NCBI RefSeq assembly: GCF_000523235.1
Contig: NZ_CP006850.1
Coordinates: 5,208,001 to 5,272,000, forward strand
DNA from: Nocardia nova SH22a
GTDB taxonomy: Bacteria > Actinomycetota > Actinomycetes > Mycobacteriales > Mycobacteriaceae
Direction of reading: 5' to 3'
DNA length: 64,000 nt
Part shown: positions 6,388-22,468 of the stretch, piece by piece
Numbering within the stretch: the first letter of the stretch is position 1
Layout: each line of letters starts with the position of its first letter
Notes under the pieces: model-generated
Told to the model about the DNA's origin: nothing
Seen by the model: the letters and a program-made list of their open reading frames with translations, nothing else
Databases searched by the model: none
Position numbers and translations under genes: made by a program

Positions 6388-7605
6388 CTACGCCGCCCGG
6401 TCGATGTGCTGGGCCGAGGCGCCGATGACCACCGGGTGATCGCCGAGCAGGGTCTGCAGGAACGCCGCCTGCACCCGGCGGCCCCGCCGGGCGGAACGCT
6501 CGCGCCCGCCCGGAACGGTCCAGGTGATCGCGCTGCGGACCAGGTTGACCGGAACACGCAGCATCGGATACCAGGGCCGCCACTGCGGCGGCAGCCCCAG
6601 CCGCACCATCGCGGCGGGCCCGAGGAAGGTCCCGGCGATCGACAGGTGCTGGGCGCGGGCGATCCGGCCGCGCAACCCCCGCAGCACGGAATAGTGCCAA
6701 GTCAACGGGTCGTCGGCCATCGGGAGCGCGAGCTGCTTGGAGGTCTCGTCGGGGTTCGTGATGGCCGACAGGCTGTGGTACAGAATGCGGACCGCATCAC
6801 GAAAGTCCTTGGGCAGCAACGGTTCGTCGACACCGATCAGCCAGCCCACGTACCGGGTCAGATGGGCGGCGGCGGCCAGTTCGCGCCGCGACACCACCAC
6901 CCCCATCGACATGGCCCCGACGAACGGTGCGATCAAGGCGCCGACCAGGGTCGCGGCCATATCGGTCTGATTGATCGGCAGCCCCCACTCCTCGGCCCGC
7001 CAATCCGGCAGCGCGGCGACATGACGGCGGACCAGCGCGTGGATGAGCCGCACCTGGATGGTCGAGCGGTAGCCGACGCCGCGCGGCAGCATCCCGCCGT
7101 CGGAGGTGACATCCAGTGCCCACTGCAGGGTCTCGGCGAACCGCTTGGCCGGGCCCTTCTCGAGTGCGCCGGTGCGGATCAGCGTCTGATTGAATCCGGA
7201 CGCGAGATATCCGCCCAGGAACGACACGTCACGCGCGATATAGATGCCGTCGACGCCACCGCGCTGGAACGCCCGTTCGGCGCGGGCGATCGCGCCGTAG
7301 TCCAGCCACGACGGCGGCCTCTCGACCTCGGTGAAGAAGTCGCGCAACGGTTCCGGCGCCTCCGGCACGGCCGCGATGCCCTCGCGCAGCGCGCGGTCGA
7401 ACAGCGCGCGGGTCCCCGCCAATCCCTCCCGATACATCCATTCCACCAGTTCGTCCATCGCGGCATCGCCCACCACCAGCGATTCCCCCAGGACGTTCCA
7501 CTGCTCGCGCGACGGCCCGCCCAACCCGAGAAGTACGGCCAGCGGCCGGAGCCCCGGCGCCCGGCGCGGCGTTGACGGATGCCTGTGCGGCACTGTCGGT
7601 TTCAT
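6388..7605 (-). CDS. MpaB/Lcp-like oxygenase, DUF2236 (copy 1)
   Basis: 405 aa. ATG 7605 is chosen over the upstream frame start because GGAGGAGAC lies 6 nt before it. The family (oxygenase MpaB/Lcp, PF09995) includes the haem rubber oxygenase Lcp. Visible core motifs are DGIYIARDVSFLGGYLASGF, YRSTIQVRLIHALVRRHV (Arg and His residues equivalent to the Lcp haem pocket), WGLPINQTDMAATL and HLTRYVGWLIGV. There is no Tat or Sec signal, unlike secreted Lcp, so it is probably cytoplasmic or membrane-associated. A close paralogue is at 14678-15883. It is transcribed from a promoter whose -10 overlaps a TetR-type motif (see 7656-7692). Confidence 0.85.
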   Translation of the reverse strand: MKPTVPHRHPSTPRRAPGLRPLAVLLGLGGPSREQWNVLGESLVVGDAAMDELVEWMYREGLAGTRALFDRALREGIAAVPEAPEPLRDFFTEVERPPSWLDYGAIARAERAFQRGGVDGIYIARDVSFLGGYLASGFNQTLIRTGALEKGPAKRFAETLQWALDVTSDGGMLPRGVGYRSTIQVRLIHALVRRHVAALPDWRAEEWGLPINQTDMAATLVGALIAPFVGAMSMGVVVSRRELAAAAHLTRYVGWLIGVDEPLLPKDFRDAVRILYHSLSAITNPDETSKQLALPMADDPLTWHYSVLRGLRGRIARAQHLSIAGTFLGPAAMVRLGLPPQWRPWYPMLRVPVNLVRSAITWTVPGGRERSARRGRRVQAAFLQTLLGDHPVVIGASAQHIDRAA

Positions 7606-7655
7606 CGTCGGTCTCCTCCGAGCCACACTCGGCTCGATCGTCGTTTTTTCACCCT

Positions 7656-7692
7656 ATGCATCAAAGATACGGAACTTGTATCATTGCGACAA
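7656..7692 (-). promoter_or_regulatory. Promoter and putative TetR operator of oxygenase copy 1
   Basis: On the minus strand: -35 TTGTCG (7692-7687), 17-bp spacer, -10 TATCTT (7669-7664). GATAC-N7-GTATC spans spacer and -10. The adjacent ATGCATCAAAGAT (7656-7668, plus strand) differs in two of 13 bases from ATGCAACGAAGAT at oxygenase copy 2 and the TetR-1 promoter. Confidence 0.65.
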
Positions 7693-7764
7693 CATAAATT
7701 ACGGACATCCCAAGGTTTTGCACGGATATCTGTGAGACACCACCCCGTGCGACATCGTCTTTCC

Positions 7765-7806
7765 TGTGAATCAAGTATTGATTATCTGTTGCATTGCGTT
7801 TACCGT
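7765..7806 (+). promoter_or_regulatory. Promoter of PucR-type gene 1 with conserved TGTTGCAT spacer element
   Basis: -35 TTGATT (7778-7783), 17-bp spacer containing TGTTGCAT, -10 TACCGT (7801-7806). AATCAA-GTA-TTGATT (7769-7783) is an inverted repeat over the -35. The same layout recurs before PucR gene 2. Confidence 0.65.
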
Positions 7807-7853
7807 GAGTCCAGTTCAGAAGCGGCGGACGTCAAAAGTCGAGGGGATGAACG

Positions 7854-8798
7854 TTGCGAGGCAATCCAGTCCACAGCGGTGTCACCGGCACCGGCCACAT
7901 CCAGCGCGAGCGCACCCGGACCGCACTGCGATCCGCCGACGCCGGGGCGGACGCGTCCATCCCGGCCGTCTCGGCGATCGTGTCCCATCTACAGCAGTTA
8001 CGCGCCGCGGTGAGCGAACCCGACAGTGCGGCAGAGGCATTGGGCGCAGTACTCATCGGCGGGCAGAACCCCGCCGCGATGGCCCGGGCCGCCGGGATCG
8101 CGATCGCCGAGGAGTACGCGGTGCTCGCCCTGGCCCTGCCGCCCGAGAATCCCGCGCACGCCGAACACGTCCGCACGGACGCGCACCGTCTCACCCGGAT
8201 CCGCCGCGCGGTCTCGGCGACCTGCGGGGCGGGCACGCTGCCGTTGCTCGGCGCGCTCGGCGGCACCGTCCTGATCCCGGCCGACGACCTCGACGATCCG
8301 GTCCCGTCCGCCCTGCTGGTCCGATTGCGCCAGGCCGCACGCGGTCCGGTGTCGATGGTTGCGGTGCCGAGCCTGATCGATTCCATCCCGCAGTCGACAC
8401 AGCTGGCCCACGAACTGCTCGATGTCGTCCACCGGCTGCGCTACGCGCCCGGGATGTACCGGTTCGAGGATCTGACCCTGGAGTATCAGCTCACCCGGCC
8501 GGGCGCGGCGACCGAACATCTGTCGCGCACGCTCGAGCCCATCGTCGGGCACCCGGATCTGGTGAAGACGCTGCGCCAGCACATCGACAACAATTTCCAT
8601 CGCCAGCAGACCGCGCGTGCGCTGAACATCCACAGCAACACCGTCGACTACCGGTTGCGGCGGGTGAAGGATCTCACCGGACTGGACCCGTACCGGCTGA
8701 CCGATCTCTGGCATCTGCAATCGGCACTGGTCGCGCACATGTATCGCCATACCGATCCCGAATCGCGGCATTCCGATATCGCCGCGACACTGGACTGA
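7854..8798 (+). CDS. PucR/CdaR-type helix-turn-helix regulator (copy 1)
   Basis: 314 aa from TTG 7854; GAGGGG sits 7 nt upstream and no better start is in frame. The C-terminal ~60 residues carry the PucR HTH (HRQQTARALNIHSNTVDYRL then RRVKDLTGLDPYRL). The middle region contains ELLDVVHRLRYAPGMYRFEDLTLEYQLT, also present in the paralogue at 19028-20257. PucR proteins usually activate catabolic genes in response to a small ligand. This copy lacks about 90 residues of the N-terminal helical domain found in the paralogue. It is divergent from oxygenase copy 1, which is a plausible target. Confidence 0.85.
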   Translation: MRGNPVHSGVTGTGHIQRERTRTALRSADAGADASIPAVSAIVSHLQQLRAAVSEPDSAAEALGAVLIGGQNPAAMARAAGIAIAEEYAVLALALPPENPAHAEHVRTDAHRLTRIRRAVSATCGAGTLPLLGALGGTVLIPADDLDDPVPSALLVRLRQAARGPVSMVAVPSLIDSIPQSTQLAHELLDVVHRLRYAPGMYRFEDLTLEYQLTRPGAATEHLSRTLEPIVGHPDLVKTLRQHIDNNFHRQQTARALNIHSNTVDYRLRRVKDLTGLDPYRLTDLWHLQSALVAHMYRHTDPESRHSDIAATLD

Positions 8799-8824
8799 AT
8801 CGCCGATCCCCGGCCCCTGCGCTG

Positions 8825-9067
8825 TCAGTGCCAGAGGCGGCGACAGGGCAGGGGACGCAGATTCGGCCGCACCTTGCGATCCACGGTAATCGCCAGACCA
8901 TTCGCCAGCGCGGCGGCCGCGAATTCACGCGCCTCGATATAGGTGGCCGCGTATTCGAGCGTGATCTCGTTTCCGGATTCCGCCCCTTCGAAATACACGA
9001 CAATACGGCGGGTGGCCTTTTCGCGACAGGTGCATCCGGCGTCGGTCGATTGTGCGTTGCCCGCCAT
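8825..9067 (-). CDS. Small hypothetical protein
   Basis: 80 aa. ATG 9067 is preferred because AAGGAG lies 7 nt upstream; an ATG at 9073 would be too close to it. The N-terminus has a CTC motif (CxC), followed by a predicted alpha/beta segment (RRIVVYFEGAESGNEITLEY) and a basic tail. No family was recognised. It is convergent with PucR gene 1 and is divergent from the SRPBCC gene. Confidence 0.55.
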   Translation of the reverse strand: MAGNAQSTDAGCTCREKATRRIVVYFEGAESGNEITLEYAATYIEAREFAAAALANGLAITVDRKVRPNLRPLPCRRLWH

Positions 9068-9399
9068 GGGCATGCTCCTTTGCATCCTTTCCGGGGCGGA
9101 ACTCGCGTCGCCGACCCGGGGCAATCGCGTGATATCCACGGTAGGTCCGATATCGGGGCAGCGACAGGTTGTGCCGTTCCCGCTTGGCGGGTCACAGATA
9201 TCGCGGCTCGCTATTGGTGCACGTGGACATATCGCGCCGGAGCCCGAATGCGGCACACGTCCATTTGTGATTCGGAACGACGATCACCGCGCGATCGACT
9301 GCACTGTCCCAGAACCCGCCGATTCCGGCACGGGGATCGCGCGCGGGCACGACCCTGGACGGTGACACCTTTTTCCGACCACCCGACAGGAGCGAAAGG

Positions 9400-9870: not shown

Positions 9871-9881
9871 CGTACCCCACG

Positions 9882-9920
9882 CTGACCGCTGAGTAACCGA
9901 ATCTGTATCTTCGTTGCATG
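9882..9920 (+). promoter_or_regulatory. Leaderless promoter and operator of TetR gene 1
   Basis: -35 CTGACC (9882-9887), 18-bp spacer, -10 TATCTT (9906-9911), with the ATG 7 nt after the -10. ATCTTCGTTGCAT (9907-9919) overlaps -10 and start codon and is identical, in reverse complement, to 14629-14641 before oxygenase copy 2. Confidence 0.65.
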
Positions 9921-10514
9921 GCGACGCGGGATCAGCTCGAGGAATCGATACTCGACGCGGCATTGGAGCGAATTCTGCAGGTCGGTATCCGCCGCGCGAG
10001 CCTCGACGACATCGCGCGCCGGGCCGGCGTCAATCGCGTCACCATCTATCGGCGCTTCCGTGTCAAGGAAAATCTCGTCGACACGGTATTGCAGCGCGAG
10101 ATCTCGCGGGTGCTGGCCGAGATCGGCCGCATCATGCGCTCCGAACCGGAGATCGACACTCGCATCGAGGAAGCGCTGCTGTTCATCGTGCAGCAGACTC
10201 GGACCCACCCCCTCGTGACCCAGTTACTGGATGTCGCTCCCGACGAAGCGGTGGAGTTCTTCACCGTGCGCGGCGAGGAATTGGTGAGCCAAGGCATCAG
10301 ATACATCCAGGGTGTCCTGCTGCACAGCCAGCAGGAGGGCATGTTCGAGAAATACGATGTGGCACCGGTCGCGGAACTACTGGCCCGATTCGCCCATTCC
10401 CTGCTCCTCACACCGGTCGGTGGCACGAACTTCGCCGACGACGATCTGGCTCGCGGCTACGTCCGCACGGCGCTCGTCCCGCTGGTCAAATTCGGGATTC
10501 CGCAGTCCGCGTAG
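9918..10514 (+). CDS. TetR family regulator (copy 1)
   Basis: 198 aa. N-terminal TetR HTH (about 10-55: ILQVGIRRASLDDIARRAGV, NRVTIYRRF) and a C-terminal ligand-binding domain with LLARFAHSLLLTPVGG. The HTH is virtually identical to that of the copy at 20703-21317, so both should read the same DNA site. There is no ribosome site, and the -10 box lies 7 nt before the ATG, so the mRNA is probably leaderless and autoregulated through the overlapping motif. Likely targets are its own gene and the two DUF2236 oxygenase genes that share the motif (inferred). Confidence 0.9.
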   Translation: MATRDQLEESILDAALERILQVGIRRASLDDIARRAGVNRVTIYRRFRVKENLVDTVLQREISRVLAEIGRIMRSEPEIDTRIEEALLFIVQQTRTHPLVTQLLDVAPDEAVEFFTVRGEELVSQGIRYIQGVLLHSQQEGMFEKYDVAPVAELLARFAHSLLLTPVGGTNFADDDLARGYVRTALVPLVKFGIPQSA

Positions 10515-10577
10515 GGGAACGCGACCGCCCGCGCGCGGGCGATTCCAGGAAACAGTGCAACAAAATCTGATTCTCTG

Positions 10578-10607: not shown

Positions 10608-10718
10608 GAACGACGTTCACTGGTTGGGCCTGCCGCCGCCCAGTACCGCTGCCGCACAGCGGAATTCAGCACAACACTCCGCGCCCGCCACCGTGGCCCG
10701 CGGGGATCAGGACGCATC

Positions 10719-11630
10719 GTGACCAGGACACTTCCCACCGCGCTGCTGCGCAGGCGCCACCGCAATCCGGACGGCTCCATGCCGTTGATCGAGCATCTGC
10801 GCGAGCTGCGCACCCGGCTGCTGATCTCCATCGTCGCGATCGCGGTCGCCACCGCACTGGGCTTCCTCTGGTACGCCCAGCCCCTGTTCGGCATCGACAG
10901 TCTCGGCGATCTGCTGCGCGGCCCGTACTGTTCGCTGCCGCCGGCCTCGCGGGCGGATCTGACCCCCGACGGTTCCTGCCGTCTGCTGGCGACCGCGCCG
11001 TTCGAGCAGTTCATGTTGCGGCTGAAGGTCGCTCTCACAGCGGGTTTCGTGCTGTCGGGCCCGTTCTGGCTGCATCAGCTGTGGTCGTTCATCACCCCGG
11101 GACTGCTGCGCAACGAGCGCCGGTACGTGGTGGGTTTCGCCGGAGTGGGCGCGGCCCTGTTCGCCGCGGGCGCGGTACTGGCCTACTGGGTGGTGGCGCA
11201 CGCGCTGGGATTCCTGCTGAGCGTGGGCAACAATGTGCAGATCAGCGCGCTCAGCGGCAGTCAGTACTTCGGCTTCGTGATCCAGTTGCTGATCATCTTC
11301 GGGGTCAGTTTCGAAACGCCGGTCCTGGTCGTCGGTCTCAATCTGCTCGGGGTGCTGCCGTACGAGCGGTTGCGGCAGTGGCGGCGCGGCATGATATTCG
11401 GACTGTTCGTCTTCGCCGCGATCGTCACGCCGCAGGATCCGATATCCATGCTGGCGCTCGCGGGCGCACTGGCCGCGCTGTTCGAGGGCTCGGTGCAGAT
11501 CGCCCGGGTGCACGACCGGATCGCGGCCCGCCGGGAGGCCCGGATCCGCGCCGCGCTGCCCGACACCCAAGCCTCGGCCCTGGAACATCCGGAGCCGATC
11601 CCGTCGGCGGAATCCCCCGATCGGCGGTAG
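10719..11630 (+). CDS. tatC: TatC-like twin-arginine translocase subunit (probably accessory copy)
   Basis: 303 aa, GTG 10719. The N-terminal motif [20 protein letters not shown] is the TatC signature, and the conserved FxExFMLRLK-type ([11 protein letters not shown]) and [14 protein letters not shown] segments are present. Six membrane helices are predicted. Length is normal for actinobacterial TatC, with a charged C-terminal tail. No tatA or tatB is adjacent, whereas the housekeeping tatC of this group sits with tatA near proteasome genes. This is therefore probably a second copy. It lies inside the oxygenase block; secreted Lcp-type oxygenases use Tat, but neither oxygenase here shows a Tat signal. 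Confidence 0.88.
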
Positions 11631-11646: not shown

Positions 11647-12639
11647 ATGACCGTACCCGCCCTACTGCGCGACCGGCTGCGCCTGCCGGTCGCCGCCGCG
11701 CCGATGTTCATCATCTCCCGGCCGGAGCTGGTCATCGCCCAATCGATCGCGGGTATCGTCGGCTCGTTCCCCACCCTCAACGCCCGGCCGCAGCCGGAGT
11801 TGCGGAACTGGCTGCACCGCATCACGCGGGCGCTGGCCGCGCACGACGCCGCGCATCCGGAGGCTCCGAGCGCGCCGTACGCGGTGAATCTCATCGTGCA
11901 CAAGACCAACGACCGGCTCTACGCCGATCTCGAGGTGGTCGAGGAGTTCCGGGTGCCGATCGTGATCACCTCGCTGGGCGCGCGGCCCGAGGTCAACGAG
12001 CGGATCCACGCCTACGGCGGCATCGTGTTGCACGACATCGTCGACAATGTGTTCGCGCACAAGGCAATCGACAAGGGCGCCGACGGTCTGATCGCGGTCG
12101 CGGCCGGTGCGGGCGGGCACGCCGGAACCCAGTCGCCGTTCGCGCTGATCCAGGAGATCCGCACCTGGTTCGACGGACCGCTGGCCCTGTCGGGCGCGCT
12201 CGCCACCGGTGACGCGGTCCTGGCCGCCCGCGCCGCGGGAGCGGACCTGGGCTACATCGGCTCGCTGTTCATCGCGACCGCGGAGGCCGACGCCGTGCCC
12301 GGATACAAGCAGATGCTGGTCGACTCCTCTGCCGCCGACATCGTCTACACGGATCTGTTCACCGGCGTACCCGGTAACTATCTGCGCGGCAGTATCGAGG
12401 CCGTCGGCCTGGACCCGGACGATCTGCCCCGATCCGATCCCTCCGCAATGGATTTCGGCTCCGGCGGCGCGATGGAGGCGAAGGCGTGGCGCGATATCTG
12501 GGGTGCCGGGCAGGGCGTGGGCCGGATCGACACGATCGACACCACGCGGGGCGTCGTGGACCGGCTGATCGCCGAATACCGGGCGGCCCAGGCACGGATC
12601 GCGGCGGACGAGCTCGACGGGTACGCCGTCCGGAGCTGA
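11647..12639 (+). CDS. Nitronate monooxygenase-like FMN oxidoreductase
   Basis: 330 aa, ATG 11647, 16 bp after tatC with GAGGAG upstream, so probably the same transcript. TIM-barrel FMN protein of the 2-nitropropane dioxygenase/NMO family: early PLPVAAAPMF-type opening (LPVAAAPMFIISRPELV), GADGLIAVAAGAGGHAG phosphate-binding loop around residue 150, GPLALSGALATG and AAGADLGYIGSLF. Class members oxidise nitronates or act as NAD(P)H:quinone-type reductases; the substrate cannot be told. Its 3' end merges into a 54-bp tandem repeat. Confidence 0.85.
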   Translation: MTVPALLRDRLRLPVAAAPMFIISRPELVIAQSIAGIVGSFPTLNARPQPELRNWLHRITRALAAHDAAHPEAPSAPYAVNLIVHKTNDRLYADLEVVEEFRVPIVITSLGARPEVNERIHAYGGIVLHDIVDNVFAHKAIDKGADGLIAVAAGAGGHAGTQSPFALIQEIRTWFDGPLALSGALATGDAVLAARAAGADLGYIGSLFIATAEADAVPGYKQMLVDSSAADIVYTDLFTGVPGNYLRGSIEAVGLDPDDLPRSDPSAMDFGSGGAMEAKAWRDIWGAGQGVGRIDTIDTTRGVVDRLIAEYRAAQARIAADELDGYAVRS

Positions 12640-12877: not shown

Positions 12878-14404
12878 CTACTCCCCCGCGACCTCCTGCA
12901 CATCGCGCGCCACCTCCGGGCCGACGCGCGGAACGGTGCGGTAGTCGCCCATGCGGATACGCCGGGTGCGCAGCCGGTATCCGAGCATCGAACCGGGCCA
13001 GTTGTTCGTATTGGCCGGGCCCGCGGCGGTTTTCGCCAGATACCAGCTGTTGCAACCGCCGGTGTTCCACACCGTCGTCGCCAGCCGCTGCTGTACCGCG
13101 TCGTCGAAGCGCTCCAGCACCCTCGGATGCACCTCCAGATAGCCGGTGCGGCGCAACTGCCTCGCCGCGCCGACGATGTAGTTCATCTGGCTCTCCAGCA
13201 TGTGCACGATCGATCCGGAGCCGACATTCGTATTGGGCCCGTACATCAGGAAGAAGTTCGGGAAACCGGGCACGGTGAGCCCGAGATAGGCGTGCGGGCG
13301 GTCCCGCCACACCGTGCTCAGGTCCGCGGCGCCCAGGCCGGTGATCCGTATCGGCGCGACGAAGTCGTGCGAACGGAATCCGGTGGCCAGGATGATCGTG
13401 TCGGCCCGGTGCACCGTGCCGTCCGCGGTGACCAGGCCGCCGGGCTCGACCCGCTCGATCGGGTTCACGGTGAGGCCGACATTCGCGCGATTGAGGGTGT
13501 CGTAGTAGTCGTTGGAGGTCAGGATCCGGTTGCACCCCACCTCGTAGGACGGCAGCAGGCGCGCCCGCAGCTCCGGATCGTCGATGCGGCGCAGATTCGA
13601 CCGGCACCACGCGCGGACGGGCCAGGACAGGATCCGCCGCCCCAGCGGCGACACCAGCATCGGATTGAGCACGCCCTCGAACCACACGAACACCGACAGC
13701 CGGGACAGCTTCTGCACCACCGGAATTCGCCGGTTCACGAATTTGCGCAACCGGGGATATCCGTAGTCCGGCTTGGGACTGATCCAGTGCGCCTGGCGCT
13801 GGAAGACCGTCAGCGACCGGGCACGTTCGGCGACGTGCGGCACGAACTGGATGGCGCTGGCGCCGTTGCCGATCACCGCCACGTCGCGGCCGTCGAACAC
13901 GTGGTCGTGATCCCAGCGCGCCGAGTGGAACACCGTCCCCGCGAAGCCGTCCATTCCGGGCAGATCCGGATACGCCGGGCGGCTGAGCTGCCCGCAGGCC
14001 GACACCAGGATGTCCGCGGTGGCGGTCTGCCCGTCGGCGAGGGTGAGAGTCCAGGCGTCGGCCGCGAGGTCGAAATCGGCGGCCGTGACCTCGGCGCCGG
14101 TGCGGACGTGTCGGCGGATGTCGTATTTACGCGCGCAGTGCCGCAGATAGTCGAGGATCTCCGGTTGTCCGGCGAAGCGCCGGGACCAATTCGGATTCGG
14201 CTCGAAGGAATAGGAGTACAGGTGGGAGGGCGCGTCGCAGGCCGCCCCGGGATAGGTGTTGTCGCGCCACACCCCGCCGACGTCGTCGGCCTTCTCGAAA
14301 ATCGTCAGCTCGGTGAAACCCGCCTGCTTCAGGCGAATCGCGAGTCCGAGGCCGCTGAAACCACTGCCGATGATCGCGATCGACGGCTGCCTGCTGTTGC
14401 GCAC
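12878..14404 (-). CDS. Baeyer-Villiger-type flavin monooxygenase
   Basis: 508 aa from GTG 14404, preceded by AGGAG with a 5-nt gap; the in-frame TTG at 14422 would lie upstream of that site. Motifs: FAD-binding GSGFSG near residue 12, the class B fingerprint FxGxxxHxxxW(D) as FAGTVFHSARWDHD around 155, NADPH-binding GNGASA around 178, and the C-terminal ATGFRSHD motif. These enzymes insert oxygen next to ketones to give esters or lactones, using FAD and NADPH. It is divergent from oxygenase copy 2 across a 273-bp regulatory region and could process ketones made by that enzyme (inference). Confidence 0.9.
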   Translation of the reverse strand: MRNSRQPSIAIIGSGFSGLGLAIRLKQAGFTELTIFEKADDVGGVWRDNTYPGAACDAPSHLYSYSFEPNPNWSRRFAGQPEILDYLRHCARKYDIRRHVRTGAEVTAADFDLAADAWTLTLADGQTATADILVSACGQLSRPAYPDLPGMDGFAGTVFHSARWDHDHVFDGRDVAVIGNGASAIQFVPHVAERARSLTVFQRQAHWISPKPDYGYPRLRKFVNRRIPVVQKLSRLSVFVWFEGVLNPMLVSPLGRRILSWPVRAWCRSNLRRIDDPELRARLLPSYEVGCNRILTSNDYYDTLNRANVGLTVNPIERVEPGGLVTADGTVHRADTIILATGFRSHDFVAPIRITGLGAADLSTVWRDRPHAYLGLTVPGFPNFFLMYGPNTNVGSGSIVHMLESQMNYIVGAARQLRRTGYLEVHPRVLERFDDAVQQRLATTVWNTGGCNSWYLAKTAAGPANTNNWPGSMLGYRLRTRRIRMGDYRTVPRVGPEVARDVQEVAGE

Positions 14405-14549
14405 ATCTGCTCCTGTCGGCAATCACGTTGTCCCCGAACGTGTCCGCCGTATACGCCGTAGTGAAGGAATGGCCGGGCTCCGGTGGCCCCGGCGCGTCAC
14501 GGAAACCGCACAACCGCAGATCCCGGAATCCCAACGTAACGCAAATGAA

Positions 14550-14620: not shown

Positions 14621-14651
14621 TTGACTCGATGCAACGAAGATCGTATCTTCG
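14621..14651 (+). promoter_or_regulatory. Promoter and TetR-type operator of oxygenase copy 2
   Basis: -35 TTGACT (14621-14626), 17-bp spacer, -10 TATCTT (14644-14649). CGAAGAT-CGT-ATCTTCG (14635-14651) is a perfect 7-bp inverted repeat over the -10. ATGCAACGAAGAT (14629-14641) is the exact 13-mer found at the TetR-1 start. Confidence 0.75.
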
Positions 14652-14677
14652 ATTCACAGCGCTCGAAGGGGAGCACG

Positions 14678-15883
14678 ATGGTTCCAGAGATTCCACTCCG
14701 GCATCCCACATCGCCGCGGCCGGTTCCCGGTCTCCGGCCGGTGGCACTGGCTCTGGGCCTGCGTAAACCCTCCCACGATCAGTGGCGTGAACTAGGGCAG
14801 TTACTGGAAGTCGGCGACGAGCCGATGGATCGCCTGGTCGACTGGATGGTCGCCGAGGGCACCGATCGGACCCGCCCGCTGTTCGAGCACGCCCTGCGCG
14901 GCGGTATCGCGCGGGTGCCCGACGCACCGCGGCCGCTGCGGGAGTTCTTCGAGTCCGTCGAGACCCCGCCGGATTGGCTGGACCGGGCCAAGGTGCACCG
15001 CGGTGAGAAGATCTTCCGCGCGGGCGGTGCGGACGGCCTCTACATCGCCCGCGACGTGTCCTTCCTGGGCGGTTACCTCGCCTCCGGTTTCAACAAGACC
15101 CTGATCCGCACCGGCGCCCTGGAGAAGGGCCCGGCCCGGCGATTCGCCGAGACCCTGCAGTGGGCCCTGGATGTGACCTCCGACAACGGGATGGCCGTGC
15201 TCGGCCCGGGATATCGCTCGACCATCCGGGTCCGCATGATCCATTCCTTCGTGCGCCGCCACGTGGCGGCCATGCCGGATTGGAAACGAGAGGAATGGGG
15301 GCTGCCGATCAACCAGACCGATATGGCCGCGACCCTGGTCGGCGCCCTGATCGCGCCGTTCATCGGCGCCGCCGCACTGGGCATCCTGCCGTCACCGCGC
15401 GAACTCGACGCCGCCGCCCACCTCACCCGGTACGTGGGCTGGCTGATCGGTGTGCAGGAACGCCTGCTGCCCAAGAGTTTCCGCGACGCCGTGCGCATCC
15501 TCTACCACTGCCTCACCGCGATCACCAATCCGGACGAGACCACACCGCGACTGGCGGTGCCGATGGCCGACGACCCGCTGACCTGGCACTATCCGGACCA
15601 TCCCGCACTGCGGGGGCGCATCGCCCGCGCCCAGCACCTGTCGGTCGCCGGCACCTTCCTGGGCCCGTCGGCCATGCGCGATCTCGGCCTGCCCCGGCTG
15701 GTGCTGCCGTGGTATCCGCTGCTGCGCATCCCGGTCAACCTGCTGCGGTGCCTGGCCGCCCGGGCGCTGCCCGGCGGGATGGATCGCGCCGCGCTGCGCG
15801 GGAGACGGGAGCAGGAAGCCTTTCTCCGGATGCTGGCGGGAACCGAGCCCGCCGAGATCGCAGCCGCCGCGCACATCGGCTGA
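14678..15883 (+). CDS. MpaB/Lcp-like oxygenase, DUF2236 (copy 2)
   Basis: 401 aa; ATG 14678 with AAGGGGA 5 nt upstream. It is homologous to copy 1 (6388-7605) along the full length, sharing long identical stretches such as YIARDVSFLGGYLASGFN, LIRTGALEKGPA and EWGLPINQTDMAATLVGALI. The haem-pocket-like motif is YRSTIRVRMIHSFVRRHV. Differences are concentrated in the N- and C-termini. No signal peptide is seen. The strong promoter with an inverted repeat over the -10 implies repression, most simply by the TetR twins. Confidence 0.87.
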   Translation: MVPEIPLRHPTSPRPVPGLRPVALALGLRKPSHDQWRELGQLLEVGDEPMDRLVDWMVAEGTDRTRPLFEHALRGGIARVPDAPRPLREFFESVETPPDWLDRAKVHRGEKIFRAGGADGLYIARDVSFLGGYLASGFNKTLIRTGALEKGPARRFAETLQWALDVTSDNGMAVLGPGYRSTIRVRMIHSFVRRHVAAMPDWKREEWGLPINQTDMAATLVGALIAPFIGAAALGILPSPRELDAAAHLTRYVGWLIGVQERLLPKSFRDAVRILYHCLTAITNPDETTPRLAVPMADDPLTWHYPDHPALRGRIARAQHLSVAGTFLGPSAMRDLGLPRLVLPWYPLLRIPVNLLRCLAARALPGGMDRAALRGRREQEAFLRMLAGTEPAEIAAAAHIG

Positions 15884-16075: not shown

Positions 16076-16822
16076 ATGAACCTTCCCGCGTCGTCGATCC
16101 ACCCGCCGACCCCGCTCCGCACCGATCAGCACGTCCCCGATGTCGCGGACCTCACCTGGACCGGCCCGGTACTCGCCGCCGTGCGTGCCGGGCTGGTCTC
16201 CTATCTGACCGCCGCCGCTGAATTCCCCGCGCCACCACGGGATTCGGAATCCGATATCGACGCCGGTCTGTGCCGGGCCCTGGCCGCGGTGGTCGCCGGG
16301 ACCGAAGGCGCGGACTGGAAGTCCACGGTCGCGGCGGCCGCCACCGACTGGCGCACACGCGACATCGCCCTGGATCCGGTGCTGTGCGGCTATCGGCGGC
16401 GAATCCGCGACGCACTCGTATTCGTCGGCCGCAGAATGGATTTCGACGACAGTCAGGCGGGCGGAGAGCTGGGCGCGGCACTGTTCACCGCCGTCGCCCG
16501 GGTCACCGCGTACATCTATCTGGCGCCGCTGCTGGCCCACCCCGACCTGCCGGGCGCCCTGCAACGCGCACTCGATCGGGTCGGGAGCCGGGACGGGCGT
16601 CGTTGTCCGGCACCGATTCTCACCGAGGCGGCCGAGGAGCGGCTGCGACTGGTGCGCACCGTGTCGACCGTCGACGTCACCACCCTGTCGCGGCTGTCGA
16701 TCGCCCACATCGCGCCGGTGGTCGACGAACTCGTCCTCGCCGACGCCGCGATGCTCCCGCGCGGTGACCGTCCTAGGACGGCTGTGGTTCCCCCAGCTCG
16801 GGCGGGTTCAGCAGCCGTTTGA
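16076..16822 (+). CDS. Hypothetical helical protein
   Basis: 248 aa from ATG 16076; the frame is open further upstream but that part looks non-coding. It is mainly alpha-helical and alanine-rich, with a conserved-looking DPVLCGYRRRIRDALVFVGR stretch and a late LSRLSIAHIAPVVDELVL segment. No family was recognised. Its last 50 bp overlap the 3' end of the convergent ligase fusion. It lies 192 bp after oxygenase copy 2 and may belong with it, but copy 1 has no visible counterpart. Confidence 0.6.
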   Translation: MNLPASSIHPPTPLRTDQHVPDVADLTWTGPVLAAVRAGLVSYLTAAAEFPAPPRDSESDIDAGLCRALAAVVAGTEGADWKSTVAAAATDWRTRDIALDPVLCGYRRRIRDALVFVGRRMDFDDSQAGGELGAALFTAVARVTAYIYLAPLLAHPDLPGALQRALDRVGSRDGRRCPAPILTEAAEERLRLVRTVSTVDVTTLSRLSIAHIAPVVDELVLADAAMLPRGDRPRTAVVPPARAGSAAV

Positions 16823-18851
16823 GGATCTTGCCGGTCTCCCCGCGCGGCAACGCGGTCACGAACGACACATCCCGCGGCACGGCCACCCGGCCGTGCCGCC
16901 CGCGGATGTAGTCGCGCACCATCTGCGCGTCCAGCCCGAGACCGTCGCGTTTGACGACGTAAGCGGCTGTGCGCTGGCCGAATTCGGGATCCGGCACCCC
17001 GACCACCGCGGCCTCACGTACCTGCGGCAGATATTCGAGCGCCTCCTCCAGCGGTCGCGGAAATACCTTCTCCCCGCCGGAGATGATCATCTCGTCGCCG
17101 CGCCCGTCGATGAACAACCGGCCGGCGTGATCGACGAATCCCACATCGCCGGTGTCGAGCAGCCCGTCCTCGGTCTCGTCCGGGGGCGGCGCGTCGACGT
17201 AGCCGTCGAACAGCATGGGATTGCCGACGAAGATGCGCCCGGTCGTGCCGACCGGCACCGGCCGCAGGTCCGCGCCGACCACGGCGACGGTGGTCCCCAC
17301 CGGCGGGCGGCCGACGGTGGCCGGTGCCTCCCGCAGTTCGGTGGGTGTCGCGATGGTCGCCCAGGAGACCTCGGTGGATCCGTAGACGTTGTAGAGGATG
17401 TCGCCGAAGGTGTCCATGAACCGCAGTGCGGCCGGGCCCGACAGCGGTGCGCTGCCGCACGCGACCACCCGCAGCGAGGAGGTGTCGTACCGGGCCCGGA
17501 CCCGGTCGGGCAGTTCGAGGATGCGATGCAGCAGGGTCGGCACGGTGGTCAGCGCGGTGACCCGGTGTTCGGCGATCGCGCGCAGGCAGTCCTCGGGATC
17601 CATCCGCCGCCGCAGCACAACACTCGCCCGTAATGCGGTGCTGAGCTGCAACATTCCCAGTCCCCAGGTGTGGAACAGCGGTGAGGCGATCAGCATCGTC
17701 TCGTTCATCCGCAACGGGATCCGGGACAGGACCGCCGCGACCGGATCCAGATCGTCACCGCGCGGGCGGCGGGCGCCCTTGGGCGCGCCGCTGGTGCCGG
17801 AGGTCAGCACGATCAGGCGGCCGGGGCGGGTCCGGCGCAATCGGACGCCGGGGGCCAGCGCGGCCAGCTGGGCCAGCGAGGTCCGGTCGGGCGAGGGCGC
17901 GTCGGAATCGATGCCGAATCGGGTGATCCCGCCGTGCAGATAGTGGATCAGCGGTTCGAGTTCACCGTCCACGAACAGTGCCGACAGCCGCTGCCGCTGC
18001 GCGACGTCCTCCAACTGCCGTGCCGACAGGCTCGCGTTCAGCAGGACCAGATCCAGGCCCGCCTTCCCGGCGGCGATCATCGTCTCGACCGTCGCGAGGT
18101 GATTGCGGGCCAGCAGTCCGGCGCAGTGGCGGCCGTCGAGCCCGAGGGCCAGCAGGCCGCGGGCGATCTCGTCGGTGCGGCGGTGCAGATCACCGAAGCC
18201 GATCCGGTCGTCGTCGTCGACGAGGGCGTCGCGGCGCGGTTCGCAGGCCGCCGCGGCGGCGTAGCCACCGGCCAGGCTGATTCCCCACTTCGCAAGGCTC
18301 GCAAGCTGTCTGATGCCCTGATCCGGACGATGCGGGCGCACCACACCGGTCGCCACGAGATGTCTGCCGACGCTCGCCTTGCGCCGCACCGGGGCGCCGG
18401 CGTGCCGATCGAGGACGGCGGTCGGCGCGGCGCGATGACGTTGTGCCAGGCGATCCAGGCCGGTCCGCAGCCAGGTGGTCACGGCGGCGGTCGAGGCCGA
18501 GGCCACCGCCGGGTGCACCCGCCCGGGAGCGAAGAAGGTCACCGCGATCCGGGTGCCCTCGCCGCGGCGGCGCAACCGGATCAGCACGAGACTGCCCAGC
18601 GGTGGGCTGTACAGCTCCAGCGTGTCGCGGCGGCGCCCGGGGATCATCCGCACCGGCACGGTCGCGATACCCGAGTGCTCGGTGCCGATCCGGTACAGCG
18701 ACACCGATCTGTCGTCGGCGGTCTGTTGCCGGTCACATCCGCCGATCCCGTCGAAAAGCCTGGCGTAGGTGTCCGGTTCGGTCAGGGCGTCCCATACCGA
18801 TTCCACCGGCACGGGCAGATCCTGTACGGACTCGACGAGTTCACCAACCAT
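16773..18851 (-). CDS. SRPBCC domain fused to fatty-acyl-CoA ligase (ANL family)
   Basis: 692 aa; ATG 18851 with GGAG upstream. Residues about 1-150 are an SRPBCC domain homologous to the separate protein at 9400-9870. Residues about 190-690 are an adenylate-forming enzyme: A3 loop LTSGTSGAPKGARR, A5 YGSTEVSW, A7 LDTGDVGF, hinge GRGDEMIISGGEKVFP and catalytic-lysine region RGETGKILKRLL. It should activate a carboxylic acid to acyl-AMP and acyl-CoA. An N-terminal START-like domain on such a ligase is unusual and suggests direct loading of a hydrophobic acid. It is followed upstream by, and co-oriented with, PucR gene 2. Confidence 0.88.
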   Translation of the reverse strand: MVGELVESVQDLPVPVESVWDALTEPDTYARLFDGIGGCDRQQTADDRSVSLYRIGTEHSGIATVPVRMIPGRRRDTLELYSPPLGSLVLIRLRRRGEGTRIAVTFFAPGRVHPAVASASTAAVTTWLRTGLDRLAQRHRAAPTAVLDRHAGAPVRRKASVGRHLVATGVVRPHRPDQGIRQLASLAKWGISLAGGYAAAAACEPRRDALVDDDDRIGFGDLHRRTDEIARGLLALGLDGRHCAGLLARNHLATVETMIAAGKAGLDLVLLNASLSARQLEDVAQRQRLSALFVDGELEPLIHYLHGGITRFGIDSDAPSPDRTSLAQLAALAPGVRLRRTRPGRLIVLTSGTSGAPKGARRPRGDDLDPVAAVLSRIPLRMNETMLIASPLFHTWGLGMLQLSTALRASVVLRRRMDPEDCLRAIAEHRVTALTTVPTLLHRILELPDRVRARYDTSSLRVVACGSAPLSGPAALRFMDTFGDILYNVYGSTEVSWATIATPTELREAPATVGRPPVGTTVAVVGADLRPVPVGTTGRIFVGNPMLFDGYVDAPPPDETEDGLLDTGDVGFVDHAGRLFIDGRGDEMIISGGEKVFPRPLEEALEYLPQVREAAVVGVPDPEFGQRTAAYVVKRDGLGLDAQMVRDYIRGRHGRVAVPRDVSFVTALPRGETGKILKRLLNPPELGEPQPS

Positions 18852-19027
18852 GTCCGTGCTCCCCTCGCCCCGGCTGCGCTGCCGGGGCGAAACAGCACGC
18901 TACGGTGCGGATTCGGGCGTCGCCCCGGACTCCGCGGCGAACTGGAGAATCGACCATCGGCGCGCCGCCGGTCGTAGTGCCCGCTCACGGCCGGGACGCC
19001 GGGAGCCGGCGTGTCCCTCGGGATGAT

Positions 19028-20257
19028 TCACTGTCCGACAACGTTTTTCATCGGCGCCATGCCGGGCAGACCGGCCGGGCGGCCGGTACCCGTACCGGCC
19101 TGGCCGAAGGACCGGATGATCAACGCGGCCTGCAGATACCAGATCCCCGGCGGCCGCGACGGGTCGTACCCGGTCAGTTCCTGGATGCGCCGCAGGCGGT
19201 AGTCGATCGTGTTGCGGTGCACCTTCATCACCGAGGCCGTGTGCTGGCGGCTCAGATTCGCGGCGATGTGGATGACCAGGGTCTGGAGCAACCGGGGATG
19301 ATCCTCCAGCGGCTCGAGCACCGTCTTGAGCCGGTCCAGGCCGGGTCCGGGCCGGGTGAGCTGGTATTCGAGCGCCAGATCGTCGAACAGGTGCAGGCCG
19401 GGGCCGTATCCCATCCGCTGGATCACATCGAGCAGTTCGTGCGCCCGGTCGGTGGCGTTCGGGATGTCGGCGCCCACGGCGTGGATCAGGGTCGCGGTGA
19501 CCGGGACGTCCGCGGCGCCCGACAGCGCCGCGATCAGATCGCCGTGGGGCGGATCGGGTTCGGTGCCGGACTCGATGACGATGGTGCCGCCGTGTTCGGT
19601 CAGTGTCGACACCACCCGGCCCGCGCAGCGCTGCTCGAGCTCCTGGCGCAGGCGCGCCACCTTCTGCCGGGCGGCGTCGTCGGCGGTGTCCGCCGGCAGT
19701 TCGTCACGATGCGGCGGAAGCGCCACGGCGAGAACGACATACGACTGCGTCACCGGCTCCTCACCGGCATCGCGACTGGCCGCGAGCAGGGCCGCCAGCG
19801 ACCGGACCGGAGTCGTGCGCGCGGTCTCGTCGCTGCGCGCCTGCGCCACCGCCGCGGTCGTCGCGGTGACCAGGTCCTGGCGCAGACTGTCCAGATTCCA
19901 CCCGTGCCGGGCCCGGCGGGCGCCCTCGGCACGCGGATCGCTCTCGACACCGCGCACCGCGCGCTCCATCGCCCGGGTCACCGCCTGGCCGACCGACTGC
20001 ACGGTCAGGCCCGCACTGGCCGACTGCGCGGTCATGACCAGCAGCTGCCGGCACTGCGCGGGCAGGATCCGGCCGTCGAGCACCCGGCCGATGAGCATCC
20101 CGGCCGTGATCTCGAAACCCGTTCGCTTCATTGCCGATTCGGCCGTGGCATCCGGTGGGGCGATGTCGTCGGCCGCGGTGGCGCCGCGCCGGTAGGAATC
20201 GAGGGGCACCGGCGCTGGTGGTGCCGCCGTGACGGCGGCCGAAGTGGTGGCATGCAT
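19028..20257 (-). CDS. PucR/CdaR-type helix-turn-helix regulator (copy 2)
   Basis: 409 aa; ATG 20257 with GGAG 8 nt upstream. Residues about 45-115 form a helical sensor-like domain, the middle part resembles a GGDEF-like CdaR fold, and residues about 340-390 carry the PucR HTH (ASVMKVHRNTIDYRLRRIQE). It shares HELLDVIQRMGYGPGLHLFD and DLALEYQLTRPG with copy 1. It sits upstream of the ligase fusion in the same direction and divergent from TetR gene 2. The promoter matches that of PucR gene 1 in layout, which argues that both are controlled alike. Confidence 0.87.
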   Translation of the reverse strand: MHATTSAAVTAAPPAPVPLDSYRRGATAADDIAPPDATAESAMKRTGFEITAGMLIGRVLDGRILPAQCRQLLVMTAQSASAGLTVQSVGQAVTRAMERAVRGVESDPRAEGARRARHGWNLDSLRQDLVTATTAAVAQARSDETARTTPVRSLAALLAASRDAGEEPVTQSYVVLAVALPPHRDELPADTADDAARQKVARLRQELEQRCAGRVVSTLTEHGGTIVIESGTEPDPPHGDLIAALSGAADVPVTATLIHAVGADIPNATDRAHELLDVIQRMGYGPGLHLFDDLALEYQLTRPGPGLDRLKTVLEPLEDHPRLLQTLVIHIAANLSRQHTASVMKVHRNTIDYRLRRIQELTGYDPSRPPGIWYLQAALIIRSFGQAGTGTGRPAGLPGMAPMKNVVGQ

Positions 20258-20442
20258 CGTTCGAACTCCATTCCGCTCGTATCGGATTCGACTCCGGATC
20301 GACCGGGCGTTGCCCCTGACCCGCGCCGCACCGTGTACGGGCGGCGGAATGGGCTCTGTGAAGGGGAGATTCGTCGATGACGATCGATATCCGCATGAGC
20401 TTCCCCTGGCCGAACCGGCATCCGATCACCGGATCGCGGCCA

Positions 20443-20484
20443 ACACTACCGCCGATGCAACAATGAATCAACATTCGATTCACC
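20443..20484 (-). promoter_or_regulatory. Promoter of PucR-type gene 2 with conserved TGTTGCAT spacer element
   Basis: Minus strand: -35 TTGATT (20471-20466), 17-bp spacer containing TGTTGCAT, -10 TAGTGT (20448-20443). The 34-nt stretch 20451-20484 aligns with 7765-7798 before PucR gene 1 at about 70 percent. Confidence 0.65.
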
Positions 20485-20485
20485 G

Positions 20486-20503
20486 TTGACACAAAAAGGT
20501 CAA
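20486..20503. promoter_or_regulatory. Inverted repeat TTGAC-N8-GTCAA between PucR and TetR genes
   Basis: Five-bp arms at 20486-20490 and 20499-20503 in the AT-richer divergent intergenic region 20258-20702; candidate regulator site. Confidence 0.4.
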
Positions 20504-20666
20504 CTCGTTACATTCGATCATAATCGGGTGACCTCTTCGTCGTCACCGAGATCGGCAATGCCGCACCGAGGGACACGGCCTCCGATCGGATTCAACGATC
20601 GCGCCCGGTACCGACATCTCGCAGGTCAGGCCCACTGTTTCGCAGATAGAACCGGGGTGACAGCAA

Positions 20667-20705
20667 TTGCACGAATTGTATCGGAATATGTATCTCGTTC
20701 GGATG
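20667..20705 (+). promoter_or_regulatory. Leaderless promoter of TetR gene 2
   Basis: -35 TTGCAC (20667-20672), 18-bp spacer, -10 TATCTC (20691-20696), ATG 7 nt later. TGTATCTCGTTCGGATG (20689-20705) parallels TGTATCTTCGTTGCATG (9904-9920) at the TetR-1 gene, each ending exactly at the start codon. Confidence 0.6.
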
Positions 20706-21317
20706 ACTCCACGTGATCGAATGGAGGAGACCATCCTCGACGCGGCGCTCGAACGAATTCTCCAGGTCGGCATCCGCCGGGCGAGTCTCGATGACATCGC
20801 CCGGCGCGCGGGGGTCAACCGGGTCACCATCTATCGCCGCTTCCGGGTCAAGGAAAATCTCGTCGACGCGGTGCTGCAGCGCGAGATCGGCCGGGTCCTG
20901 GCCGAGGTCGGTCAGATCACCGCCTCCACCCCGGGGCTGAGCGCGCAGATCGAAGAGGCCGCGCTGTTCATCATCCGGCAGACACGCACCCATCCACTCG
21001 TCACCCAGTTGCTGACCGTCGTCCCGGAGGAGGCGGTCGAGTTCTATACCGTACGCGGCAAAGACCTTGTCGGCCTCGGAATCTGGTACATCGACGTCAT
21101 TCTGCGAAGATCGCAGGAACACGGGATGATCGGCGACTACGACCCGCAACCGGTGGCGGAGTTCCTGGCCCGGTTCGCCCACTCCCTGCTGCTCACACCG
21201 CTCGGCGGGGTGAATTTCGAGGACGACCGGCTGGCACGTGAGTTCGTGCGCTCGGCGATCGTGCCGATCGTGCTGCACGGGCTCACCAGCCCGCCGGATC
21301 CGTCCGACCGGCCCTGA
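20703..21317 (+). CDS. TetR family regulator (copy 2)
   Basis: 204 aa from ATG 20703, which aligns with the start of the copy-1 protein; two ATGs at 20667-20690 in frame are upstream of the -10 box and rejected. The HTH (ILDAALERILQVGIRRASLD to TIYRRFRVKENLVD) is nearly identical to copy 1. The ligand domain is also similar (RTHPLVTQLL, ARFAHSLLLTPLGG) but diverges around residues 65-75 and 110-150, so the two may sense different effectors at the same operator. Leaderless promoter as for copy 1. Confidence 0.9.
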   Translation: MTPRDRMEETILDAALERILQVGIRRASLDDIARRAGVNRVTIYRRFRVKENLVDAVLQREIGRVLAEVGQITASTPGLSAQIEEAALFIIRQTRTHPLVTQLLTVVPEEAVEFYTVRGKDLVGLGIWYIDVILRRSQEHGMIGDYDPQPVAEFLARFAHSLLLTPLGGVNFEDDRLAREFVRSAIVPIVLHGLTSPPDPSDRP

Positions 21318-21475
21318 CCACTGCGGACGGGTGCCGAAACACCCAGCACCACAACGGTATTACGGGATCCGCTGTCCGATGTCCAGACAACGCGTCGATT
21401 CCGGCCGGTCCGGCGCGTCCGCACCGAAGATGAACCCGTCCGATGTCGAACCGCCACCGGAGGAAGGAAGCACTG

Positions 21476-22468
21476 ATGCGTTCCACCACCGTGGATCGGA
21501 TCGATGGCGCCCGCAGCCTCGCCGGGTCGTGCTATCGAACCCCCGATCGCTATTCCGTCACCGCACAACGCATCCGCGCGTACGCGGCCGCGGTTCACAA
21601 CCGTCATCCGGCCCATTTCGACCGCGACGCCGCCGCCGACCTGGGATTCGAGGGGCTGGTGGCGCCGCCGACCTTCGCGACACTGCCCTGGCTTCGCGCC
21701 GCGCGAGAGGTGCTCGGCGCGCTCTACGGGCCGCGCCCGCCGCGAATCCTGCACGCCGAACAGCTGATTCGCATCGGCCGACCGCTGGTGGCCGGGGACG
21801 TCGTGACCACCGACATCCACATCGATTCCGTCGAGCACTTCCCCGACTACTGCGCCCTCGTGGTGACCACGGTGCTGCGGGATCTGGGTGGTACGGCCGT
21901 CCAGACCGGCACGGCGACACTGCTCACCGACAGCCCCGCCGCCCGCACACCGCGCCCGGCCGTCGAATATCTGCGCTGTCATCGGCGCCCGGCCGCCGTC
22001 GTTCGCACCGGCGCCACGGATCCGATCGCACCCGCGCGCGTTCCTGGCCCGGCCACCACCCCGCTGACCGCCGGGACCGAGCTGCCGCGCCGGACGGTGT
22101 CGGTCCATCGCGGTGAGCTGCTGCGCTACGCCGCACTGACCGGCGCGTCCGGCCGGGCCCGGCAGCGGCCCGCGGCCTGCCTCGGGATGGCGCCCGGGAT
22201 GCTGCGCCTGGCGCTGACCGCCGGGGTCGTCACCTCGTGGCTCGGCGATCCGGCCCGGGTGCGCGTGCTGCGTGCGGAGTTCAGTCATCACTGCGCGGAT
22301 CCGGCCGCCACCACCGAGATCGTCGAATTCCGCGGCCGGGTCCGCGACACCGGACCCGAACACCGCACTCTCACAGTCGATCTCGATGCCCGGTGCCGCG
22401 GCCGCAGATTGTTCGCCCACGCCGCGGCGGCGATCGAACCGGACGACCGGGTGCCGCCACCCACATGA
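21476..22468 (+). CDS. MaoC-like double-hotdog dehydratase (FAS1-like)
   Basis: 330 aa; ATG 21476 with GGAGGAAGGA upstream. The N-terminal hotdog (PDRYSVTAQRIRAYAAAVHN, then ADLGFEGLVAPPTFA) matches the FAS1-like dehydratase/MaoC N domain found in HadA-type and (R)-hydratase proteins. The second half is a degenerate hotdog in which the expected catalytic HxxxxD/N is not evident. It probably hydrates 2-enoyl thioesters, or it has become a binding partner. It lies downstream of TetR gene 2 and would complete a beta-oxidation-like route with the ligase fusion. Confidence 0.7.
   Translation: MRSTTVDRIDGARSLAGSCYRTPDRYSVTAQRIRAYAAAVHNRHPAHFDRDAAADLGFEGLVAPPTFATLPWLRAAREVLGALYGPRPPRILHAEQLIRIGRPLVAGDVVTTDIHIDSVEHFPDYCALVVTTVLRDLGGTAVQTGTATLLTDSPAARTPRPAVEYLRCHRRPAAVVRTGATDPIAPARVPGPATTPLTAGTELPRRTVSVHRGELLRYAALTGASGRARQRPAACLGMAPGMLRLALTAGVVTSWLGDPARVRVLRAEFSHHCADPAATTEIVEFRGRVRDTGPEHRTLTVDLDARCRGRRLFAHAAAAIEPDDRVPPPT

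Follow-up and report, generated by a model that had tools for sequence, protein, structure and literature searches.

Within some 16 kb of the genome of Nocardia nova SH22a, genes for an MpaB/latex clearing protein (Lcp)-type putative haem oxygenase, a PucR regulator, an SRPBCC-domain protein and a TetR regulator each occur twice, which raises the question whether this block is a duplicated pathway, a set of chance neighbours or part of something larger. The window analysed here is a stretch of 64,000 nucleotides (bases 5208001–5272000 of a single contig of 8,348,532 bases), and the named proteins nearest to its proteins are from Nocardia. A preliminary description had read the block as a two-branch oxidation pathway for a hydrophobic polymer or terpenoid under parallel regulation. 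The gene kinds and coordinates that it gave were borne out by Pfam and NCBIfam scans (MpaB/Lcp, PF09995; PucR, HTH_30; TetR; SRPBCC), 30 open reading frames (ORFs) of the window being scanned with Pfam. Likewise, the genes that it placed amid the pairs were confirmed as a Baeyer–Villiger-type flavin monooxygenase (BVMO), an NMO/FabK-like enzyme, an AMP ligase and a MaoC/HadAB-like hydratase. A TatC gene, absent from that description, also sits among the genes of the block. Judged from the sequence comparisons below, the block belongs to a genuine accessory gene set that occurs in a minority of Nocardia and is patchily inherited.

The evidence comes from a survey of 148 Nocardia genomes (150 for TetR). 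By sequence, the set comprises MpaB/Lcp-type oxygenases, a type I BVMO, a flavoenzyme that carries a twin-arginine signal, an esterase-like protein of family PF00756, TatA, TatC or both, TetR and PucR, joined in some members only by an SRPBCC–acyl-CoA ligase. Some match to the BVMO is present in 135 of the 148 genomes at E ≤ 1e-140, and some match to the flavoenzyme (query P0132 of genome G016) in 147 at E ≤ 1e-120. A cut at 591 bits, chosen after a gap in the scores was seen, leaves nine genomes for either protein: G000 (N. nova SH22a), G109, G141, G073, G022, G016, G036, G128 and G138 for BVMO orthologs (next score 563 bits; identity 67–76% apart from this genome, with the G138 match spanning only residues 142–505), and G016, G128, G036, G088, G141, G111, G000, G073 and G138 for the cluster-type flavoenzyme (next score 560 bits). 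Seven genomes are common to both lists (hypergeometric P 5e-9, phylogeny being ignored; 6e-8 when G128, whose flavoenzyme shares 93% identity with that of G016, is excluded for this reason). In six of the seven, BVMO and flavoenzyme share a contig, usually with MpaB, TetR, PucR, esterase and TatA. In N. nova SH22a the BVMO is found at 5.22 Mb versus 5.82 Mb for the flavoenzyme, so that the latter, with the esterase-like gene and a TatA match, lies about 0.6 Mb from the block. Long MpaB proteins (E ≤ 1e-100) were detected in 95 of the 148 genomes, with two copies in G016, G073, G128, G138 and G141 and three in N. nova SH22a and G036, and the TetR family (E ≤ 1e-45) in 50 of the 150.

Gene content was compared further by tblastn for 25 genomes (11 BVMO-bearing ones and 14 others), using fetched stretches, so that absence here means absence from those stretches. 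TatC was found at 66–75% identity in five of the 24 comparison genomes, all BVMO-bearing (G109, G016, G128, G036 and G141), and TatA in six, each with both BVMO and flavoenzyme. The SLT_2 gene at the end of the block has matches (49–63%) in four of these six. G016 and G128 have the set divided between contigs, with MpaB, TatC and an esterase-like gene together on a second one. A TatA-type gene (PF02416 in the member scanned) adjoins the flavoenzyme in loci L053, L055, L060 and L080, and TatC adjoins TatA in L060; the TatC of the window is possibly dedicated to its locus. The preliminary description had named a lack of co-occurrence in related genomes as grounds for its own rejection, and on this point it has been upheld, as some Nocardia genomes have MpaB, TetR, PucR, BVMO and further genes together.

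The association extends beyond the genus. Across a class-wide sample of 394 genomes, the BVMO was matched at E ≤ 1e-172 in four, two of them Nocardia including N. nova SH22a. A genome that we infer to be Thermomonospora, G388, belongs to another family and carries within 8 kb a BVMO, a flavoenzyme whose signal is GRRKF, a membrane protein that weakly matches EamA, a PucR-type regulator and an MpaB (37%). In G523 the flavoenzyme adjoins a BVMO at one place, and a second BVMO stands alone elsewhere; Williamsia has flavoenzyme, TetR and MpaB in a row. With G388, a core version of the set exists outside Nocardia. The titles and abstracts found in the literature searched, which did not take in all relevant papers, include no description of the set, and a prior description is possible.

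The pairs within the block do not seem to have one age. Each was compared with the whole genome for better or equal paralogs. The two TetR proteins share 72% identity (289 bits), and the next paralog of TetR1 reaches 88 bits (32%); moreover, TetR1, TetR2 and the TetR of G109 form one clade (support 98; 51 TetR rows). The MpaB proteins are 69% identical, and a third close paralog, at 6992689 in the genome, is 65% identical to MpaB2. A quick tree built on 69 MpaB rows joins MpaB2 to the G109 copy (SH-aLRT 99) to the exclusion of MpaB1, which itself pairs with a Nocardia carnea copy (support 83), a placement that is unsure because both end branches are long. The PucR pair (42% over 214 columns) is only the 8th of 18 non-self matches of PucR1. 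The SRPBCC pair (35% over 139 columns) is likewise unspecific: the stand-alone protein matches residues 1–137 of the block fusion at E about 1e-17 and 62 bits, versus 74 bits for another fusion at 5866810. In a simple block duplication all pairs would be mutual best paralogs of one age; the TetR copies are such a pair, and the PucR and SRPBCC copies are not. The two MpaB proteins are, by the MpaB tree, older paralogs and not sisters, and the duplicates seem to be mostly old paralogs plus one young TetR pair. As the pairs seem to differ in age, the block is not one duplication. Of the four duplicated gene kinds reported, all are present twice, whereas only TetR is a specific close duplicate; with older MpaBs and unspecific PucR and SRPBCC copies, the two-branch duplicated pathway is therefore not retained. 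That the copies are rearranged and not a simple tandem was corroborated at the DNA level, where the MpaB and PucR pairs are inverted and TetR is direct.

Two observations concern these families elsewhere in the genome. A PucR-type match at 5869551–5870348, next to the second SRPBCC-ligase gene, contains one in-frame TGA. An AOX2-type gene (82% to the query) is found within a few kb of the third close MpaB (locus L017, around 6992689), a pairing that recurs in N. nova-group species; a relative of this type passes the HpnE cut-off (290 versus 283 bits).

To our knowledge, most MpaB/Lcp-family genes have no known role. Among PDB sequences, only Lcp K30 structures match MpaB1 at E ≤ 10 (E 3e-11), and an AlphaFold2 model built from 17 sequences (predicted local distance difference test 81, predicted template-modelling score 0.86) retrieved only Lcp by Foldseek at E ≤ 0.001 (E 7e-8, TM by query 0.54–0.60). 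MpaB thus combines the PF09995 domain with a predicted Lcp fold. By alignment, MpaB R162, T166, H196 and R200, equivalent to Lcp R164, T168, H198 and R202, are invariant in 17 of 17 sequences; R164, T168 and H198 are haem-site residues of Lcp (PMC6311187). As with lcp, a TetR gene lies nearby. The likeness ends at three features. Lcp Lys167 aligns with Glu (E165) in all 17 sequences; Lcp Glu148 aligns with Leu (L149), apparently, in a gapped and less certain stretch; and no Tat (twin-arginine translocation) signal is visible by eye in MpaB1, MpaB2 or the other sequences of the 17-sequence alignment. K167 is described as the distal ligand and E148 as the likely base (PMC5522427), so the chemistry of MpaB need not equal that of Lcp. 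Unlike the Lcp system, the gene set also has a BVMO, a PucR and, as a protein of its own, a Tat-signal flavoenzyme. The true Lcp of N. nova SH22a is encoded elsewhere (4497089–4498303) and has a Tat signal. Across the genus, 127 of 148 genomes have Lcp at E ≤ 1e-100, whether or not they carry the cluster, and neither G141, which has the cluster, nor G088 has a match at that threshold. A link between cluster and Lcp, and hence rubber, was tested across the genus and dropped.

Another parallel is with the bacterial MpaB-family haem oxygenases that cleave C=C bonds (Purwani et al. 2024, as cited in PMC12724181) and with Gordonia Nro1, which bear the same family name and are distinct from Lcp (PMC12724181). 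There, b-type haem and alkene cleavage are expected; the block MpaBs are likened to them by name, and for these MpaBs residue conservation and fold point to such an activity. Nro1 has 323 aa (PMC12724181), versus about 405 aa for the block subfamily. MpaB1 and MpaB2 are regarded as putative b-type haem, alkene-cleaving oxygenases. The genome holds 16 PF09995 matches, against 12 DUF2236 sequences counted for N. nova SH22a in PMC9070631.

The BVMO has phenylacetone monooxygenase (E 2e-72) and steroid monooxygenase (E 4e-72) as top PDB matches. Its fingerprint FAGTVFHSARWD, with GSGFSG before and GNGASA after it (by eye), agrees with the type I pattern FxGxxxHxxxW(P/D) between two Rossmann motifs. 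Phenylacetone and steroid monooxygenases act on methyl ketones. The block enzyme shares with them the fingerprint and both nucleotide-binding motifs; still, the best-scoring stretch covers only about residues 12–217, and its best NCBIfam match, PtlE, reaches 173 bits versus a cut-off of 1100. The partner flavoenzyme begins MAESEVSRRSVMKG in G016 and has MADSEVNRRKVLKG in the N. nova SH22a copy at 5820009 (53% identity to the G016 query; three further copies, 41–46%, fall in the general group), in both cases a twin-arginine signal. An HpnE/CrtI-like (phytoene-desaturase-like) protein, it has the PF01593 FAD fold, and HpnE and carotene desaturases are its best NCBIfam matches; unlike HpnE, the G016 protein scores 85.8 bits versus the TIGR03467 cut-off of 283 and has a Tat signal and a TatA neighbour. 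Another flavoenzyme copy with an RR signal lies between two PucR-type genes at 1866287–1870730 of the same genome (L183), which suggests that the PucR–flavoenzyme association is wider than this gene set.

Regulation of the two halves was addressed through the motif ATGCAACGAAGATAC. At up to three mismatches it has five matches in the window versus 0.48 expected (0 of 100 shuffles reached five), an optimistic statistic because the window had also supplied the motif. Four sites (7656, 9905, 14629 and 14643) lie at MpaB1/PucR1, TetR1 and MpaB2, i.e. in both halves of the block, and an unrelated one at 30878. Of the distinct sites in 119 other loci, 35 (from 25 loci) fall within 150 bp of TetR or MpaB starts and 7 elsewhere, and 60 letter shuffles of these loci gave a mean of 0.57 near-start sites and a maximum of 5. 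Among nineteen other stretches of the N. nova SH22a genome, 18 had no match, among them the loci of the flavoenzyme, the third MpaB and the second SRPBCC-ligase, and the sole match was a 3-mismatch site in L014. TetR1 and TetR2 also share an identical run of 45 residues covering the helix-turn-helix (HTH) region. What remains of the parallel regulation proposed earlier is thus in silico: the common HTH region and one motif at promoters in both halves. Two further patterns were discarded, namely a second motif common to the halves, TGCAACAN7GATTC (3 matches versus 2.4 expected), and a 3-bp-spaced palindrome, which was not significant at up to three mismatches (1 match, a perfect one, versus 2.3 expected).

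At about even confidence, we read the set as an accessory catabolic one for the oxidative breakdown of an alkene-bearing, probably isoprenoid lipid, split over two loci in N. nova SH22a. The exported flavoenzyme and esterase would give access to the lipid on the outer side of the membrane. C=C cleavage by the MpaBs in the cytoplasm would yield an aldehyde and a methyl ketone, the latter would be converted into an ester by the BVMO, and the ligase, the NMO/FabK-like enzyme and the HadAB-like hydratase would pass the acid to beta-oxidation. The two TetRs, with their shared HTH region and candidate operator, would repress both halves, and the PucRs would probably activate. Substrate class, step order and the assignment of repression and activation are what we infer from the gene content; a terpenoid or isoprenoid-type substrate is our preferred guess. 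The proposed chemistry is coherent because Lcp-type cleavage yields a methyl-ketone end and the PDB neighbours of the BVMO act on methyl ketones. Specifically, Lcp-type cleavage leaves CHO-CH2- and -CH2-COCH3 ends (PMC5522427). The recurrent partners (BVMO, Tat-signal flavoenzyme and its own Tat parts) would give a concrete, testable pathway order for one MpaB/Lcp branch, and are relevant to what becomes of the ketone end once an isoprenoid has been cleaved oxidatively. Bacterial enzymes that cleave C=C bonds attract interest as ozonolysis-like catalysts (PMC12724181). A bolder version, which we consider doubtful, is a self-contained actinobacterial isoprenoid C=C-cleaving system, with its own TatA and TatC exporting a dedicated HpnE-like flavoenzyme and, inside, MpaB cleavage coupled to a Baeyer–Villiger step on the methyl ketone under TetR/PucR control; in some cases MpaB paralogs would serve two different bonds or isomers.

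Several results weigh against the catabolic reading. BVMO genomes without the cluster-type flavoenzyme exist (G109, an 88%-complete metagenome-assembled genome, and G022), as do flavoenzyme genomes without the BVMO (G088 and G111). The fetched loci of G073 and G138 lack TatC, those of G141 an esterase-like match, and the fetched stretches of G523 (20 kb) an MpaB. TetR and MpaB occur without the remaining partners in many Nocardia loci, mycobacterial MpaB loci have none of the partners, and the SRPBCC-ligase is near-core in the genus (SRPBCC domain at E ≤ 1e-6 in 143 of 148 genomes). On the regulatory side, TetR2 has no motif site within three mismatches, nor does the distant flavoenzyme locus of N. 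nova SH22a carry the motif. The motif itself holds a -10-like TATCTT and reaches into the start codon at some TetRs, TetR1 among them; it may thus be promoter and operator in one, and part of its conservation may be that of a promoter.

That the block is an ordinary actinobacterial lipid-metabolism region, with large families adjacent by chance and only the TetR–MpaB pair a real unit, would fit the unspecific PucR and SRPBCC pairs, the common occurrence of TetR–MpaB without other partners in the fetched loci and the abundance of BVMOs. Chance, however, would place BVMO and flavoenzyme together in about 0.5 genomes (9 × 9/148) and not in seven, six of them with the two genes on a single contig. 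Genes for PucR, TatA, TatC, esterase-like and SLT proteins recur with these two, and another family has a core version, in which BVMO, flavoenzyme, PucR and MpaB are again together. We consider this account improbable. No more probable is a biosynthetic or envelope-lipid tailoring cluster, in which a terpenoid or a lipid related to mycolates would be made by the oxygenases, and the PF00756 protein and the Tat-exported flavoenzyme would act in the envelope. The PF00756 family includes mycolyltransferases, and HadAB-like and FadD12-like genes are present, as is, in some relatives, an HpnE-type gene nearby. Fungal MpaB, moreover, is biosynthetic (PMC12724181). Set against this, Pfam named no terpene synthase, polyketide synthase or nonribosomal peptide synthetase, or P450 in the 30 ORFs scanned (one condensation-domain protein is present in the N. 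carnea locus), and TetR, PucR, acyl-CoA ligase and hydratase together are more usual for catabolism.

The polymer part of the original proposal would make MpaB1 and MpaB2 additional latex-clearing proteins in rubber or gutta-percha depolymerisation. The strain does degrade both polymers (PMC9070631), and TetR/AcrR-type regulators are reported to accompany lcp; Lcp is also the only solved relative of MpaB. Still, the rubber role is disfavoured and seems very unlikely, because no Tat signal is visible by eye, Lys167 is replaced by Glu (with Glu148 to Leu in an uncertain alignment), and the true Lcp is a different Tat-signal gene, present in genomes with and without the cluster and having no match at E ≤ 1e-100 in G141, which carries the cluster.

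Table 1 Features of the block in window coordinates
Feature	Position	Strand	Basis
MpaB1, MpaB/Lcp-type putative haem oxygenase	6388..7605 from inner ATG (405 aa); ORF to 7626	-	PF09995 67.5 bits
Candidate operator-like site between MpaB1 and PucR1	7656..7670	+	2 mismatches to ATGCAACGAAGATAC
PucR1 regulator (HTH_30)	7854..8798	+	PF13556 62.3 bits
Small ORF, 82 aa (by eye)	8825..9073	-	match (61%) only in G141 loci among 24 comparison genomes
Stand-alone SRPBCC protein, 156 aa	9400..9870	+	35% identity to N-terminal domain of SRPBCC-ligase fusion
Candidate operator-like site overlapping TetR1 start; reference sequence of motif	9905..9919	-	motif search
TetR1	9918..10514	+	PF00440 50 bits; TetR2 best genome paralog by far
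TatC	10719..11630	+	TIGR00945 219 bits versus cut-off 132.7
NMO/FabK-like flavin enzyme	11647..12639	+	PF03060 63 bits; top PDB match FabK, E 5e-19
BVMO	12878..14422	-	PF00743; PDB matches; fingerprint FAGTVFHSARWD
Two opposed candidate operator-like sites, CGAAGAT-CGT-ATCTTCG, upstream of MpaB2	14629..14657	.	motif search
MpaB2, second MpaB/Lcp-type putative haem oxygenase	14678..15883; ORF from TTG 14621	+	PF09995 71 bits
SRPBCC–acyl-CoA ligase (FadD12-like) fusion	16773..18851	-	PF00501/PF13193; PF10604 below its cut-off
PucR2 regulator	19028..20257	-	PF13556 64.7 bits
TetR2	20703..21317	+	PF00440 52 bits; 72% to TetR1
HadA/HadB-like double hot-dog hydratase/dehydratase	21443..22468	+	PF13452/PF01575; NF040620 217 bits versus cut-off 350
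SLT_2 lytic-transglycosylase-like protein	22499..23308	+	PF13406 32 bits; signal-like N-terminus by eye

Some assignments in Table 1 call for comment. The stand-alone SRPBCC protein had no Pfam match of its own in the window scan; it is a member of the SRPBCC alignment (A2) and was recovered by that alignment at 207 bits. For the ligase fusion, NCBIfam NF009921 (FadD12) gave 432 bits versus a cut-off of 850. This fusion had been considered as a rare marker, a protein search from its SRPBCC part having returned two matches only, and was dropped because of the near-core distribution found in the genus search. The SLT_2 protein is probably secreted, judging from its N-terminus. A 248-residue ORF at 16076–16822(+), overlapping the end of the ligase gene, had no Pfam match and no tblastn match in the fetched loci of the 24 comparison genomes.

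Outside the set, MpaB has other neighbours. A divergent 214-residue ORF (cluster k4) stands beside MpaB in 11 loci, all mycobacterial or Antrihabitans, with none of the other partners; one member was scanned and had no NCBIfam match at E ≤ 1e-10. A second type of TetR–MpaB neighbourhood was seen in L064, L065, L070–L075, L077, L078 and L085, with a two-domain acyl-CoA dehydrogenase, a cholesterol-oxidase-like GMC enzyme, SRPBCC, SDR, a TesB-like thioesterase and an amine-oxidase-family flavoenzyme, not all of these genes being present in all loci. The locus in a record titled Kitasatospora arboriphila nearly equals that of Williamsia muralis in gene order and in MpaB and TetR sequence (L164 and L162), and because of this near-identity it may be misnamed or mixed. 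Finally, upstream in the window, positions 3598–6321(+) encode a 907-residue protein of unusual architecture, in which an MFS transporter (residues 40–454) is fused to carboxypeptidase-regulatory/Ig-like repeats (best stretch 632–710).

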